DNA from: Leptotrichia trevisanii DSM 22070
Lineage (GTDB): Bacteria > Fusobacteriota > Fusobacteriia > Fusobacteriales > Leptotrichiaceae
Direction: 5' to 3'
Assembly: GCF_000482505.1 (NCBI RefSeq)
Contig: NZ_KI519443.1
Location: 1 to 64,000 of the forward strand
DNA length: 64,000 nt
Below are positions 3,623 to 9,079 of this stretch, piece after piece. Every line of letters starts with the position of its first letter. Position 1 is the stretch's first letter. Under the pieces are notes generated by a model. It made no database searches and had not been told where the DNA came from. It saw only the letters and a program-made list of their open reading frames with translations. Made by a program: the position numbers and the translations under genes.

Positions 3623-4429
3623 ATGAAATACATATTTGATGATTTTGTTACATACTATAAATTTGTGTTAGATAAAAAAATATCTAGAAATGCTGATATT
3701 GAAAATCAAGTAGATGTTTCAATGCAAAAGGAAATTTTGAATAAACTAAGCCAATATACAAAGAACAAAAAGGAACTAATTGATTTATTTCCTGAGATTT
3801 TGAATTTTAATTTTTCTCCAAGTCCTAATAATTATAAAATTAGTTGGATAAGTGGATATAATATTGGAAAAAAAATAAAAGAAGATTTGAATAAATTGAA
3901 AATTGGAGAAGAATTTTATATTATATCCCCATATATTGGTGATAATGATTTTTCCGACTTATCCACTATAATTATGTCTTTAATAGAAAAAGGTGTACAA
4001 GTAAAAATATTAACCACTTTTGAATTACAAGATAACAAAAAAGAATTTTTTAAAAAATTTATAAAATTCAACAAAAACCAAAATGCCTATTTTTTGGTTT
4101 ATACTAACGGAAGAACTACAAAATTTACCGATAAGAAAATAAATTTTTATATTATTGAAGGTATCAATTTACATAGTAAAATTTATATAATCAACAACAC
4201 TATCTATGTCGGTTCTAGCAATTTTACAGGAGATGGATTTTACTCAAAATTAGAAACTATCAATAGAGCTGAATTTATCGGAACTAATTCAAAAGAAAAT
4301 GTTAAAACAATTTTTATAGAAAAACTTGATTTATATAAAGAATTTTATAATACTTATTATTCTTCAAATTTTGAAGACTGTCAAGAAATAGGTAAACAAA
4401 TATATAAGCAAAAAAGTGTAAAATCGTAA
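3623..4429 (+). CDS. phospholipase D-fold (HKD-like) nuclease protein
   Basis: The product is 268 residues. After about 65 helical residues, residues 75-235 form a PLD-like domain: EEFYIISPYIGD marks the first core strand and LHSKIYIINNTIYVGSSNF, near residue 183, the active-site loop. The canonical HxKxxxxD is present as H-x-K-x4-N, so the Asp is replaced by Asn; the GSSNF and the later N-x-A-E-F are kept. Related domains occur in NgoFVII-type restriction enzymes and in defence helicase-nuclease proteins. A GGAG site 7 bases upstream supports the start. As cargo between repressor and integrase it is a candidate anti-phage or restriction function; the substrate is unknown. Confidence 0.65.
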   Translation: MKYIFDDFVTYYKFVLDKKISRNADIENQVDVSMQKEILNKLSQYTKNKKELIDLFPEILNFNFSPSPNNYKISWISGYNIGKKIKEDLNKLKIGEEFYIISPYIGDNDFSDLSTIIMSLIEKGVQVKILTTFELQDNKKEFFKKFIKFNKNQNAYFLVYTNGRTTKFTDKKINFYIIEGINLHSKIYIINNTIYVGSSNFTGDGFYSKLETINRAEFIGTNSKENVKTIFIEKLDLYKEFYNTYYSSNFEDCQEIGKQIYKQKSVKS

Positions 4430-4457
4430 CCTACCTTTATTTTTCTATAAAATTTAT

Positions 4458-4477
4458 TTTTCTCACATATGAGAAAA
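4458..4477. repeat. 20-bp inverted repeat, copy 1
   Basis: TTTTCTCA and TGAGAAAA form a perfect 8-bp inverted repeat around CATA. Two related copies occur at 4897-4916 and 7040-7059. Each lies at a junction between cargo modules and upstream of a gene start (72, 90 and 20 bases before the next gene). The copies could be operators for a dimeric regulator or recombination sites. Confidence 0.6.
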
Positions 4478-4549
4478 TCAAAAATTGTATTAAATATTTA
4501 TATAAGTAAAAACTATATGAAATAAAAATAAATTGTTGTATTATTATTT

Positions 4550-4886
4550 ATGGAAAACTACATAAAGGAACAAATAAAAATTTTAATGCTTCTTCATAAT
4601 ACCAAAGATATTTATTTTTTGTGTAGACACTATAAAATTCATATATTATACAATAATTTTGTTTTAAAAGGCTCTTTTTTTATTGATGAAAATAACACAA
4701 ATTTTATATTTTTGAAAAAAGGACTTTCTCCTCAAGAAGAAATTGATATTCTAATACACGAGTTTGGACATTTTATATTGCACAGACAGTATTTATTAAA
4801 TCGGAGAGGCTGATAAATATAATCATTTAATGGAAAAAGAAGCTAAGTTATTTGTAAAATATTTTAAAAATTATAAATTAAAATAA
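4550..4886 (+). pseudogene. ImmA/IrrE-type metallopeptidase, frameshifted
   Basis: The first 84 codons encode a zinc-peptidase domain with the motif HEFGHFILH (HExxH-like, with Phe-Gly) near residue 70, characteristic of ImmA/IrrE proteins that cleave XRE-family repressors. The frame stops at 4813 after an abrupt RRG. In the +1 frame from 4803 the sequence continues GEADKYNHLMEKEAKLFVKY and stops at 4886. That is the expected ImmA continuation, with Glu-Ala as the third zinc-ligand region. One extra base (or two missing) near 4799-4808 explains both halves. No clear ribosome-binding site precedes the ATG. It is either a decayed gene or a sequencing error. Confidence 0.7.
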
Positions 4887-4896
4887 CAAAATTTGA

Positions 4897-4916
4897 TTTT
4901 CCCACGTGTGAGAAAA
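4897..4916. repeat. 20-bp inverted repeat, copy 2
   Basis: TTTTCCCA and TGAGAAAA surround CGTG, with one mismatch between the arms. It is followed by the partial duplicate of the integrase start region (see 4933-4978) and precedes the methylase gene. Confidence 0.6.
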
Positions 4917-4932
4917 ATTACAACATCATAAT

Positions 4933-4978
4933 GAGGTGTTAAAAATAGGAGTTTATAAAGATAAGATACTGAATGAAG
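4933..4978. repeat. duplicated integrase start region (left copy)
   Basis: This segment matches the integrase start at 7067-7108: GAGGTGTTAAAAATAGGAG here against GAGGTGTTAAAAATGGGAG there, then GTTTATAAAGATA in both, and ACTGAAYGARG after a 6-base insertion here. The start codon is ATA instead of ATG. Together with inverted repeat copies 2 and 3 this makes a direct repeat of about 80 bases flanking the restriction-modification genes. That fits insertion of the R-M cassette with a long target duplication followed by decay of the left copy. Confidence 0.75.
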
Positions 4979-5006
4979 AATTAATTATTAAAATAAAGGG
5001 AGAAAA

Positions 5007-5900
5007 ATGGAAATATTAAATATATTTAAAAATTTATCATTTACAAAAATGTATAACAAAAATGCTATGGCTGTACTAGGAGACTGTTTAGATATTTTAC
5101 GTTCTATTAAGGATAACTCTATTAATCTTATTTTTGCTGATCCACCATATGGCATTGGAAAAAATTTTGGTAATGACAGTGATTTTTTTAAAAATAAGGA
5201 AGAATACTTTGAATGGGCAAAAAAATGGATAGATGAATGTATGAGAATCTTAAAAGAAGATGGAACAATGTATTTCATGACTTCAACTCAATTTATGCCT
5301 TTTCTCGATGTATATGTTGATAATAATTATTACATAATCAACAGAATTATATGGGCTTATGATTCCTCTGGTGTACAAGCCAAAACTAAATTTGGCTCTT
5401 TATATGAACCTATTTTGATGGTTACCCATTCTAAAAAAAGCAAATATACGTTCAATTATCAAGATATTTTAATTGAAACCAATACTGGGGCCAAAAGAAA
5501 ATTAATTGATTACAGAAAAACACCTCCACAACCTTATAACACTAAAAAAGTTCCTGGAAATGTTTGGGATTTTAGCAGGGTTAGATACAGAATGGATGAG
5601 TATGAGAATCATCCCACACAAAAACCAGAAGAATTGCTTAAAAGGATTATTTTGGCTTCAAGCAATGAAAACGATATTGTTTTAGATCCTTTTAGTGGTT
5701 CTTTTACAACTTCTGCTGTTGCTCTAAAATTAAATAGAAAAACGATAGGAATTGAAACTAATTTGGAATATTTTAAAATAGGATTGAGAAGACTAAATAT
5801 TACTGATGAATACAACGGTGTCAAACTTGAAAAAGACAAAAGTAAAAAAACAAAAAATAAATCAAAAAAAGATCATATTTCTGAAACTCAAATTATATAG
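5007..5900 (+). CDS. type II DNA adenine-N6 methyltransferase, YhdJ-like
   Basis: This 297-residue methylase has the catalytic motif IV as DPPYGIGKNF near residue 47 and the AdoMet motif I as DPFSGSFTT near residue 230, i.e. the class-beta order (catalytic motif first). The central and C-terminal parts closely recall E. coli YhdJ: SYDSSGVQAK-like AYDSSGVQAK, YRKTPPQPYN, VPGNVWDF and YENHPTQKPEELLKRIILAS. YhdJ methylates the second A of ATGCAT, so this enzyme probably protects ATGCAT. That is inference from similarity. GGGAG before the ATG supports the start. It is followed after 20 bases by the presumed cognate endonuclease. Confidence 0.9.
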   Translation: MEILNIFKNLSFTKMYNKNAMAVLGDCLDILRSIKDNSINLIFADPPYGIGKNFGNDSDFFKNKEEYFEWAKKWIDECMRILKEDGTMYFMTSTQFMPFLDVYVDNNYYIINRIIWAYDSSGVQAKTKFGSLYEPILMVTHSKKSKYTFNYQDILIETNTGAKRKLIDYRKTPPQPYNTKKVPGNVWDFSRVRYRMDEYENHPTQKPEELLKRIILASSNENDIVLDPFSGSFTTSAVALKLNRKTIGIETNLEYFKIGLRRLNITDEYNGVKLEKDKSKKTKNKSKKDHISETQII

Positions 5901-5920
5901 ATTGAAAAAAGGAGTATTCA

Positions 5921-7003
5921 ATGAAAGACTTTATAAAAGACATATTATTTCAATATTTTCCTAATGATTATTTATACATTTATGAAAACAGTCCCTTAAT
6001 CAAATATTTAGATTCTAAAATGGGGGCTGTATATGGAAATTCTAAAACTAGACGTAATTTAGGTAATATATATGCCATATATTCTATTTTATTTTATTAT
6101 AATCAAAATTTTTTTAATAATCCTGAAGAATATAGAAACTTTGAAGGCTATGAATTTACTCTGTTATTTAATTTTTGCAGAAGTCTTTATGGTGGAAGCA
6201 AATTGCAGAATCATGCACTTAATTCACGAGTTAATGGAGAATTTAAAAATAAAATTGTAAAAGAAAATGATAATGATTTAATTATAATAAATTCAGGAAA
6301 TTATTTATTGCATATTGATTATTTATACGTAAATGATACAAATAATCTGTCTTATGACATAAGTAGAGTTGCTATTGAAATAATACAAAAATATATAGAA
6401 CTGCTAAAAGAGAAAGATTCTCAATTAATAAAAAAATTAGAAGAACTGATGTCTATTGGTATTTATCCTTTTAAAATAATAAAAATTTCAGAACTGCTCA
6501 CTGAAAATGCGGAAGCTAGAATTTTTGAAATAATTTCATATGCTATTTTAAAAAATCATTATAAAAATACAAAAATATATATCGGATATTCTCCTGATCA
6601 ATTAGAGGAACAATATTTAACATTATATAAAACGGGAAGAACTAATGCTAACGATGGTGGCATTGATTTTGTTATGAGACCTCTTGGAAGATTTTTTCAA
6701 GTTACAGAAGTGAACGATTATGGGAAATATTTATTGGATATTGATAAAGTTTTACATTTTCCAATTACTTTTGTGATAAAAACTGAAAAACCTAGGTTCG
6801 TAATTCAAAGTGAGATAAACAATTATATAAATTTTAGATCGAGTGGAATGAAAGTTATTCAAAAAAGATATATTCAAGCTATTGAAGAAATTATAACCAT
6901 AAACGAATTAAAGGACTGGTTAAATAATTTGGATAATGAAGCAATAGATCAATTAATAAAAGACATTGATTTTTATTATAAATTAGAATTGAATATTTTA
7001 TAA
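5921..7003 (+). CDS. presumed type II restriction endonuclease
   Basis: The product is 360 residues with no family that I recognise by sequence alone. It directly follows an adenine methylase gene with a good GGAG site, the usual arrangement of a type II pair. Near residues 235-275 it contains NDGGIDFVMRPLG, FFQVTEVND and GKYLLDIDK. The Asp in GGIDF followed by Q-V-T-E fits a PD-(D/E)xK-type core in which the second acidic residue is Glu. The N-terminal half is helical. If the methylase acts at ATGCAT, this enzyme would be an AvaIII/NsiI isoschizomer. The assignment rests on neighbourhood and a partial motif. Confidence 0.65.
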   Translation: MKDFIKDILFQYFPNDYLYIYENSPLIKYLDSKMGAVYGNSKTRRNLGNIYAIYSILFYYNQNFFNNPEEYRNFEGYEFTLLFNFCRSLYGGSKLQNHALNSRVNGEFKNKIVKENDNDLIIINSGNYLLHIDYLYVNDTNNLSYDISRVAIEIIQKYIELLKEKDSQLIKKLEELMSIGIYPFKIIKISELLTENAEARIFEIISYAILKNHYKNTKIYIGYSPDQLEEQYLTLYKTGRTNANDGGIDFVMRPLGRFFQVTEVNDYGKYLLDIDKVLHFPITFVIKTEKPRFVIQSEINNYINFRSSGMKVIQKRYIQAIEEIITINELKDWLNNLDNEAIDQLIKDIDFYYKLELNIL

Positions 7004-7039
7004 AACTATATTTTCGATTATAATAAATGTAGTTCTATA

Positions 7040-7059
7040 TTTTCTCAAGTGTGGGAAAA
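7040..7059. repeat. 20-bp inverted repeat, copy 3
   Basis: TTTTCTCA and TGGGAAAA surround AGTG, just upstream of the integrase ribosome-binding site. This is the presumed original location next to the integrase. Copy 2 would be the duplicate created when the R-M cassette entered. Confidence 0.6.
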
Positions 7060-7078
7060 TCAATGCGAGGTGTTAAAA

Positions 7079-8134
7079 ATGGGAGTTTATAAAGATACTG
7101 AACGAGGTACTTGGTTTGTTCAGTTATGGTATAAAGATATTTTTGGTAATAACAGGAAAAAGAAAAAACGAGGATTTAAAAGACAATCAGATGCTAAAAA
7201 ATGGGAAGTTGAATTTATTAACTCTCTTTCTTTAACTTCAGACATTACTTTTGGTAACTTATACAAAGAATTTATTGCTGATTTTAAAGTTAGAGCCAGA
7301 ACATCAACTGTAAAAACTAGAAAATTAATTGTATATAAACACATTTTACCATTTTTTGAAAATTTTAAGATTAGAGATATTACACCTAAGATTATTCGAG
7401 AATGGCAAAATATGTTATTAAATCAGAACTATTCTTTAAATTATTTGAGAACTATTTCTCAGTTGCTTTCATCTATTTTCAAATATGCTGAAAGATTTTA
7501 TAACTTAAAAAATAATCCTTATAAAATAAGCGGTCCAATTGGAAGTACTGAAAGAAAAAAGGAATTTAATATATGGACAGAAGAAGATTTTTCTATTTTT
7601 ATAAAAGAGATTAAAGAGCCTGTTTTTAGTATTGCATTCAAAATTTTATTTTTATGCGGATTGAGAGTTGGCGAACTATTGGCACTTACATTTGAAGATA
7701 TTAATTTTAAAACCAATGAAATTGATATTAACAAAACAATTTCAAGGGACATTACTGGAACTACAATTGCTCCTCCCAAAACAAAAAATTCAATTCGTAC
7801 CATTTATTGCCCTGAAGATCTTGTAAAAGAAATTGAAAATTATAAAAATTCTTTTTATGAATTTAATGAAAAAGAGAGATTATTTCCTTTTTCTTATGAT
7901 GCTTTACGAAGAAGACTTGTTTCTATTTCTAAAAAATGTGATTTAAAACAAATAAGAATTCACGACTTTAGACATTCGCATGCTTCTTATCTTTTATATA
8001 AAAAAGTCGATATTGCAGCCGTTTCAAAAAGGCTAGGACATAAAAATATAAAAGTAACTTTAGAAACTTATGCTCATCTAATACCTAAATCAAATGATTA
8101 TTTACAGGAAGTATTAGATGATATTTGTTTTTAG
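7079..8134 (+). CDS. tyrosine recombinase / integrase
   Basis: This 351-residue integrase catalyses site-specific integration and excision of the element. The N-terminal 50 residues form an arm-binding domain of the Tn916/lambda type (GTWFVQLWYKD). Residues about 55-150 form the core-binding domain (SAM-like). The catalytic domain has the first Arg in CGLRVGELLAL, HDFRHSHAS (HxxR), LGHKNIKVT and the nucleophile Tyr in ETYAHL. I chose the ATG at 7079 because GAGGTG lies 6 bases upstream; an in-frame earlier start has no such site. The gene ends about 35 bases before the queH terminator, placing the attachment site between 8135 and 8170. Confidence 0.92.
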   Translation: MGVYKDTERGTWFVQLWYKDIFGNNRKKKKRGFKRQSDAKKWEVEFINSLSLTSDITFGNLYKEFIADFKVRARTSTVKTRKLIVYKHILPFFENFKIRDITPKIIREWQNMLLNQNYSLNYLRTISQLLSSIFKYAERFYNLKNNPYKISGPIGSTERKKEFNIWTEEDFSIFIKEIKEPVFSIAFKILFLCGLRVGELLALTFEDINFKTNEIDINKTISRDITGTTIAPPKTKNSIRTIYCPEDLVKEIENYKNSFYEFNEKERLFPFSYDALRRRLVSISKKCDLKQIRIHDFRHSHASYLLYKKVDIAAVSKRLGHKNIKVTLETYAHLIPKSNDYLQEVLDDICF

Positions 8135-8170
8135 TCTTAAATTTGCCCCCAAATTGCCCCCACAAAGCAA
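8135..8170. other. probable right attachment-site region
   Basis: This lies between the integrase stop and the host queH terminator. It contains TTGCCCCCA twice (8143-8151 and 8154-8162), spaced 11 bases apart. G/C-rich repeats directly after an integrase are typical of arm or core sites. The matching left end was not found in the window. Confidence 0.45.
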
Positions 8171-8197
8171 AAGGAGAGATTTTAAGAATCTCTCCAA
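8171..8197 (-). terminator. terminator of queH
   Basis: GGAGAGATT (8173-8181) pairs with AATCTCTCC (8187-8195) around a short loop. Read on the minus strand it is followed by CTTTTGCTTT. It closes the queH transcript and could also stop integrase transcription from the other side. Confidence 0.7.
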
Positions 8198-8200
8198 CCC

Positions 8201-8944
8201 CTATTTATACTCATTCAAGTCAATCCCCTGATCCATCGCAGCAAACACGCAGCCACAATAACACTGCCTATACACATCATATTCTGCACACATATCTATC
8301 GAACGTTTATATCCGTTATTTTTCTTAAAGTCGGATGGAAGATATTTTACGTCAAAGATTTCCTGAATTTCCAGCCCCAACGTGTTTATTAATTGGCTAT
8401 TCTTATGCGGGCTTAACGTCAAGGCACTTCCAAAATAGTCAAACCCCAATTCCTGAGCCTTTTTTGCCACAATGTCAAGCCTCATCTGAAAACAGACTGT
8501 ACATCTTGCTCCACCCTCTTTTTCCTTTTCCAGCCCTTTCACAGCCTTATAAAAGTCCATCGGCTTATACTCATCCTCAATAAATCCAACATTATTTCCA
8601 GTACGCTCATTAAACTTTTTGATAAATTCTTCCTGCACTAAGGCTCTTTTTTCATATTCTGCCTTCGGATGAATGTTGTTATTTGCAAATAATACTGTTA
8701 CATCTGCATACTGTGTAAGAAATTCCAATGTATATGTGCTGCAAGGAGCACAGCAGCTATGAATCAGTATTTTGGGACGAATATGTTTATTTCCCCAATC
8801 TGAAATCAACTTTGTCAAAATTGTATGATAATTGATTTTCTGGTTAGGATTCATTCTTTCCAGAATTTCCTTTGCGTTTTTTATATCCCTTTCAATATGG
8901 CTTTCTGTACTTTCCGTCTGTTCAATATTTTCATTGTTTTTCAT
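8201..8944 (-). CDS. queH: epoxyqueuosine reductase QueH
   Basis: This enzyme reduces epoxyqueuosine to queuosine in tRNA, the last step of the Q34 modification; it is the iron-sulfur alternative to QueG. The protein has HSCCAPC with vicinal cysteines near residue 65, GARCTVCFQMRL near 145, and a C-terminal CYCGC, which supply the cluster and metal ligands of this family. FGSALTLSPHKN is also a family signature. The ATG at 8944 is preferred over an in-frame TTG one codon upstream. The integrated element lies immediately downstream of its 3' end. Confidence 0.92.
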   Translation of the reverse strand: MKNNENIEQTESTESHIERDIKNAKEILERMNPNQKINYHTILTKLISDWGNKHIRPKILIHSCCAPCSTYTLEFLTQYADVTVLFANNNIHPKAEYEKRALVQEEFIKKFNERTGNNVGFIEDEYKPMDFYKAVKGLEKEKEGGARCTVCFQMRLDIVAKKAQELGFDYFGSALTLSPHKNSQLINTLGLEIQEIFDVKYLPSDFKKNNGYKRSIDMCAEYDVYRQCYCGCVFAAMDQGIDLNEYK

Positions 8945-9079
8945 CAAATTAATTTCTCTCCCATTTTTAAGCTATGTTCAAATCCTTTTAAATTTATTAT
9001 AAAATTAGACTTGCTTTCATAATCACAAAAAAATTCCATAATTTTGAATTACTAAACAAGTCTACAAAAATTTTAAAAA

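Follow-up and report, generated by a model that had tools for sequence, protein, structure and literature searches.

A putative type II restriction-modification pair between two copies of an integrase leader in an ICE-like element of Leptotrichia

Introduction

How does a restriction-modification (R-M) gene pair come to lie directly ahead of the integrase gene of a mobile element, with sequence belonging to that integrase on both of its sides? The question is raised by the beginning of contig C69 of a Leptotrichia genome (L. trevisanii DSM 22070, here G000), of which a stretch of 64,000 nucleotides, hereafter the window, was analysed. Insertion of R-M systems with long and variable target duplications, on the order of 100 bp, has been described (PMC3874152; see also PMC3031569; PMC1643837), as the initial annotation of this DNA had noted. 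These papers cite Nobusato et al. (2000) and Furuta et al. (2010) for such duplications. Here, we compare the two copies, search for empty and occupied relatives, and weigh the ways in which the locus may have arisen.

The mobile element

Besides the R-M pair and the tyrosine integrase, the genes between 1118 and 8134 encode an Xis-like, a DnaC-like and a DnaD-like protein, an HTH repressor, a PLD-domain protein and an ImmA-like peptidase, and together they look like an ICE module. The R-M pair is located between the ImmA-like gene (Peptidase_M78; 4550-4886, + strand), of which the 0-frame ORF ends at 4813 and the conserved C-terminus is encoded in the +1 frame up to 4886, and the gene for a tyrosine recombinase/integrase with an Arm-DNA-binding domain (7079-8134, + strand), which starts with ATG at 7079 and is chimeric. 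Directly beyond the integrase gene lies, on the - strand, a host gene (8201-8947) which we take to encode an epoxyqueuosine reductase (QueH)-like protein. The integrase-QueH neighborhood is common to the window and to loci G012 and G001a, suggesting that these elements may use one attachment site. ParA, relaxase-like and transfer-like genes, so named from sequence, are found on further contigs of G000 and its relatives together with the palindrome described below, and the element is therefore probably an ICE split across contigs. An end of the element near position 1020 was considered but dropped, since the genes on the left recur inside other ICE contigs (G000 C77). Scans of IMG/VR yielded zero relatives, whether the query was the integrase, the R protein or the start pattern.

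Between the repressor and ImmA genes, the corresponding locus of L. hongkongensis (G008, L073) contains at ~5609-6508 a different gene, marked by a PLD-like HSKFYLI..GSANLTEKG motif. Its counterpart in the window is the PLD-domain gene at 3623-4429, which shows weak matches to DrmC, DpdK and ZacB, and this interval is possibly a variable defense slot.

Six copies of the ImmA-like gene, those in the window (4550-4886), G001a, G001c (L090), G008 (L073), G010 (L091) and G012 (L031), share a frame break at one position. The 0 frame stops shortly past the ..LL(N/H/S) codons, either at CGG AGA.. or, in G012, directly at TAA, and the +1 frame runs on as IGEADKYNHLMEKEAKLFVKYFKNYKLK*. In pairwise comparisons, the +1 frame had 53 synonymous vs. 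29 nonsynonymous codon differences, against 18:68 and 5:73 for the other frames. It also carries an ExEA motif, which may hold the third zinc ligand of M78 peptidases. The break is a candidate for a programmed +1 frameshift that would gate an active protease.

The R-M pair

ORF and profile searches showed two intact genes at 5007-7003. The first, M (5007-5900, + strand), encodes a YhdJ-like adenine-specific DNA methyltransferase, which matches NCBIfam PRK11524 (YhdJ-like; E 1.6e-144) and also Pfam N6_N4_Mtase; by analogy with the YhdJ family, it is predicted to have ATGCAT specificity. The second, R (5921-7003, + strand), encodes a type II restriction endonuclease, which matches the PADLOC REase_II profile (E 2.8e-82), with zero Pfam or NCBIfam matches in the profile searches. 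M and R, both intact, adjacent and of known families, make up a putative type II R-M system, and cleavage and methylation of one site are predicted from the gene families.

Homologs of R with 34-54% identity adjoin yhdJ genes on plasmids of other phyla (Lactiplantibacillus, Leptospira, E. coli and Acetobacter). These pairs of a YhdJ-type (ATGCAT) methyltransferase and a linked type II endonuclease share with the Leptotrichia pair the family of M and the adjacent R, but they sit on plasmids, whereas the Leptotrichia pair sits in a chromosomal ICE in the Fusobacteriota. M and R are codirectional in Leptotrichia and on the plasmids of Lactiplantibacillus and Leptospira, whereas they are convergent on those of E. 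coli and Acetobacter, with an HTH gene beside R that has no equivalent next to the Leptotrichia pair. Since M and R recur alone on unrelated plasmids, the two genes are the moving unit. In the phylum, R is present in 2 of 98 genomes, i.e., G000 and G001; in the latter it occurs at locus G001a only and is absent from G001b, and the genome of G008 is also without it. R and M occurred together in a genus-wide search, and no R homolog was found in the phage collection.

The two copies of the integrase leader

The R-M pair is immediately flanked by direct repeats, both composed of a palindrome, a spacer, a ribosome-binding site (RBS) and the first ~10 codons of the integrase. In the left copy (4897-4978, + strand; 82 bp), the palindrome TTTTCCCACGTGTGAGAAAA (4897-4916) is followed by a spacer, the RBS GAGGTG (4933-4938), a dead start codon, ATA (4945-4947), and decayed integrase codons. 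The right copy (7040-7107, + strand; 68 bp) contains the palindrome (7040-7059), the RBS (7067-7072), the intact ATG at 7079 and the first integrase codons. The initial annotation had described a duplication of about 80 bases that included the inverted repeat, the RBS and the first codons, with a dead start on the left; this description of its content holds, and the length fits the left copy, while the right one is shorter.

The repeats have a core of 31 positions (4933-4963 vs. 7067-7097), 30 of which are the same (a 97% match in BLAST). A 105-nt left segment scored 59 against the right segment, whereas the maximum among 300 Markov controls, in each of which a 105-nt query was run against both strands of 7 kb, was 43, which bears out the earlier claim that the pair is bounded by duplicated sequence. 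The alignment of the two copies, which the initial annotation had proposed as a check, holds in the core and is broken in the spacer by an indel of ~10-14 bp between palindrome and RBS; the right-copy spacer is shorter than those of the left copy and G008, and the left spacer matches G008 whereas the right one does not. In addition, a 5-bp AGATA tandem slip is present in the left copy only. An unusual half-site, CAAGTGTGG, is common to the left copy of G001a and both right palindromes, as would follow from copies that started out identical, while the left copy of the window has CACGTGTGAG instead.

A BLAST hint that the left copy might be a longer stump of a G008-type integrase was pursued with shuffles in ten sequence pairs and two alignment modes. 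The shuffle tests gave no consistent support for such a continuation, as the few pairs with a nominal p of 0.01-0.05 disagreed on the lineage, and the end of the left copy was set at about 4978.

The palindrome itself is not diagnostic, since a third copy, TTTTCTCACATATGAGAAAA, lies upstream of ImmA (4458-4477) and many further sites exist in ICE contigs of the genus. The informative part of the repeat is therefore the RBS with the start codons. Across ICE-like contigs of the genus, the 20-bp palindrome TTTTCTCACGTGTGAGAAAA is found at intercistronic sites (window 4458, 4897 and 7040; L073-L082), usually 30-60 bp ahead of a start codon, and with up to 2 mismatches it is found in 8 of the 13 genomes of the genus. 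It divides small cargo genes, and cargo content varies between ICEs. A role as intrinsic terminator was rejected because of its position 30-60 bp before start codons and the absence of a T-run; it could possibly be an ICE-wide operator, an RNA hairpin or a recombination site.

Empty and occupied relatives

Four loci with an ImmA-integrase junction are without R-M genes: G008, G001b, G012 and G010. Three of them have a single leader copy, namely G008, G001b and G012, the last of which is divergent; G010 has the same ImmA gene, but it is followed by an unrelated integrase and no palindrome. The best empty site is that of G008, which is collinear with window positions 4490-4963 over 473 bp at 93% identity with small gaps only; this stretch spans ImmA, the palindrome, the RBS and the first codons and then runs straight into the integrase of G008. 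The ImmA-like gene is the ancestral left neighbor of the integrase. In G012, which occupies the same QueH site, ImmA is directly followed by a single palindrome-RBS-integrase unit, although its leader aligns only weakly to the copies, the integrase codons excepted. These best empty sites come from other species, and that of G008 leads into an integrase of a different lineage, with ~52% identity over the first 134 aa.

A search of 13 genomes of the genus for the core, allowing up to 3 mismatches, returned five sites, of which the window contains two and G001b and G008 one each, the fifth being the right copy of G001a. Apart from the window, this R-M pair occurs only at G001a, where both copies are again present and the left one, decayed further, also has ATA. 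Between G000 and G001a, identity is 98.8% in R, 100% in the spacer and right copy and 94.7% in M, vs. 79% from the left copy to the start of M and 80% in ImmA, a pattern in which the left copy would be free to change and the right copy constrained. Empty relatives with both copies, which according to the initial annotation would mean that the duplication predates the insertion, did not turn up: a two-copy element without R-M genes was found neither among the 13 genus genomes nor in exact-pattern searches of viral_contigs and genome_contigs. The two-copy state thus tracks the presence of the R-M pair, but both carriers belong to one lineage and represent a single event.

A recombinant integrase start

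The first ~41 nt of the integrase gene are G008-like, and the remainder is G012-like. The first 41 nt are the same as in G008, with all 9 informative sites in agreement, and in the next 37 nt, 14 of 15 favor G012; for this split (9:0 before nt 41 and 1:14 after), Fisher's test gives p = 8e-6, which is somewhat optimistic as the breakpoint was set by eye. The breakpoint falls just inside the repeated region. The crossover between the two integrase lineages lies within GGTACTTGGTTTGT (window 7079-7160). A crossover at this position implies that the integrase of the ICE was swapped and its leader kept. The ImmA/left-copy side and the R/right-copy side also show different divergence patterns. Together, the spacer indel, the chimeric integrase and the contrast between ImmA (80%) and R (98.8%) mark this spot as one of recombination.

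How the R-M pair got there

In our judgment, insertion with a long target duplication is the best reading of the locus and a reasonably probable one. A two-gene type II R-M unit would have entered a Leptotrichia ICE at the 5' end of the integrase gene, and a target of ~70-80 bp, comprising the palindrome, the RBS and the first integrase codons, would have been duplicated around it. The right copy would have continued to drive the integrase, while the left copy would have lost its start codon and decayed, and the left palindromic leader with its upstream sequence would have ended up ahead of M. The duplication, the single-copy empty sites, the one relative that has two copies and shares the dead start, and the decay on the left are all observed, and we infer that a single event both inserted the pair and duplicated the target. 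The left side of the window may later have been replaced by G008-like DNA, as the left copy of G001a keeps CAAGTGTGG and that of the window has CACGTGTGAG. A transposon or composite transposon was rejected: no transposition machinery, terminal repeat, or transposase or IS ORF was found at 4400-8200, and the flanks are copies of the palindrome and leader.

The main rival is that modules were joined, a segment with the R-M pair, palindrome leader and integrase of one ICE having been fused to the ImmA gene, palindrome leader and integrase start of another, so that the copies would stem from different elements and the left one would be the stump of a displaced integrase. The recombinant integrase start, the G008-like left spacer next to a different right one, and the very unequal divergence of ImmA and R between the two R-M carriers all agree with such a fusion, as does the variety of integrases at the ImmA-integrase boundary, where G012, G008 and G010 differ from one another and that of G010 is unrelated and has no palindrome. 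However, no donor is known with the R-M pair upstream of palindrome and integrase and without the left copy, R occurring in 2 of the 98 genomes of the phylum; left and right copies share a half-site in G001a, and the sequence past the left copy shows no significant continuation into a G008-type integrase. We regard the fusion as possible but doubtful. Its evidence also bears on the earlier verdict of a clear example: the insertion is mostly supported, but with a recombinant integrase, sides that diverge differently and spacers that differ, the case is not a clear one.

Two further histories start from the palindromes. The leader might have been tandemly duplicated by replication slippage or unequal crossing-over, with the R-M pair entering between the copies later; the many repeats of the palindrome in these elements, also upstream of ImmA, would suit this course, but the absence of two-copy elements without R-M genes from the genomes and contigs searched makes it very improbable. 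Similarly, the R-M pair might be one of many cargo cassettes swapped between palindromes, which do part small cargo genes of variable content. The duplication extends ~60 bp beyond the palindrome into integrase codons, however, which an exchange from palindrome to palindrome does not yield; a palindrome-only exchange was therefore rejected, and we hold cassette exchange in general to be highly unlikely.

If the R-M pair was inserted with a target duplication, the integrase was left with an intact leader and start, and the R-M pair obtained the old upstream sequence, the palindrome and the dead start; judged from this arrangement, it has probably inherited the old integrase leader. M has an RBS of its own, AAAGGGAG. 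The 36-bp spacer between the R stop codon and the right copy (7004-7039, + strand), which is 100% identical in G001a, contains a weak sigma-70-like promoter with a -10 TATAAT ending at 7024. In this AT-rich DNA, promoter matches were no commoner than in shuffles (28 vs. 22.2, sd 5.6), so that regulation of the R-M genes and the integrase is something we can only infer.

Comparison with known systems and significance

As in the R-M insertions with long target duplications known so far, the R-M genes are absent from relatives, no transposase is present, and long direct repeats of the target lie on both sides where a single copy is found in sites without R-M genes; copies of 82 and 68 bp also fit duplications on the order of 100 bp (PMC3874152). 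The locus departs from those cases in having an ICE integrase leader and start as its target, old and diverged copies, a recombination breakpoint at the same site, and empty sites that belong to other species instead of other strains of a single species. ICEBs1-like modules (Xis, ImmA, Int) and the R-M cargo of ICEs offer a second likeness, with R-M genes beside the integrase and ImmA-like and Xis-like genes; elsewhere, however, such cargo occupies an intergenic cargo site, whereas here it interrupts the integrase leader and leaves a dead integrase start. The type of insertion is thus already known, and what is new is an instance with an integrase leader as target. No publication on this Leptotrichia insertion was found; the sole match for Leptotrichia, ICE and R-M together was, by its title and abstract, a general review of oral conjugative elements.

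More tentatively, the palindrome-RBS-integrase-start region could be a recombination hot spot at which Leptotrichia ICEs swap integrase bodies and cargo, and the R-M pair might have arrived in this way and been placed under the leader or operator of the ICE. The locus offers an R-M example, polarized by empty relatives, of entry into a mobile element without a transposase. Such an insertion can put R-M genes behind the regulatory leader of the element while the start of the integrase is left intact. The locus likewise points to the ImmA-integrase boundary as a site where these ICEs recombine, which bears on how the elements change their target site and cargo.
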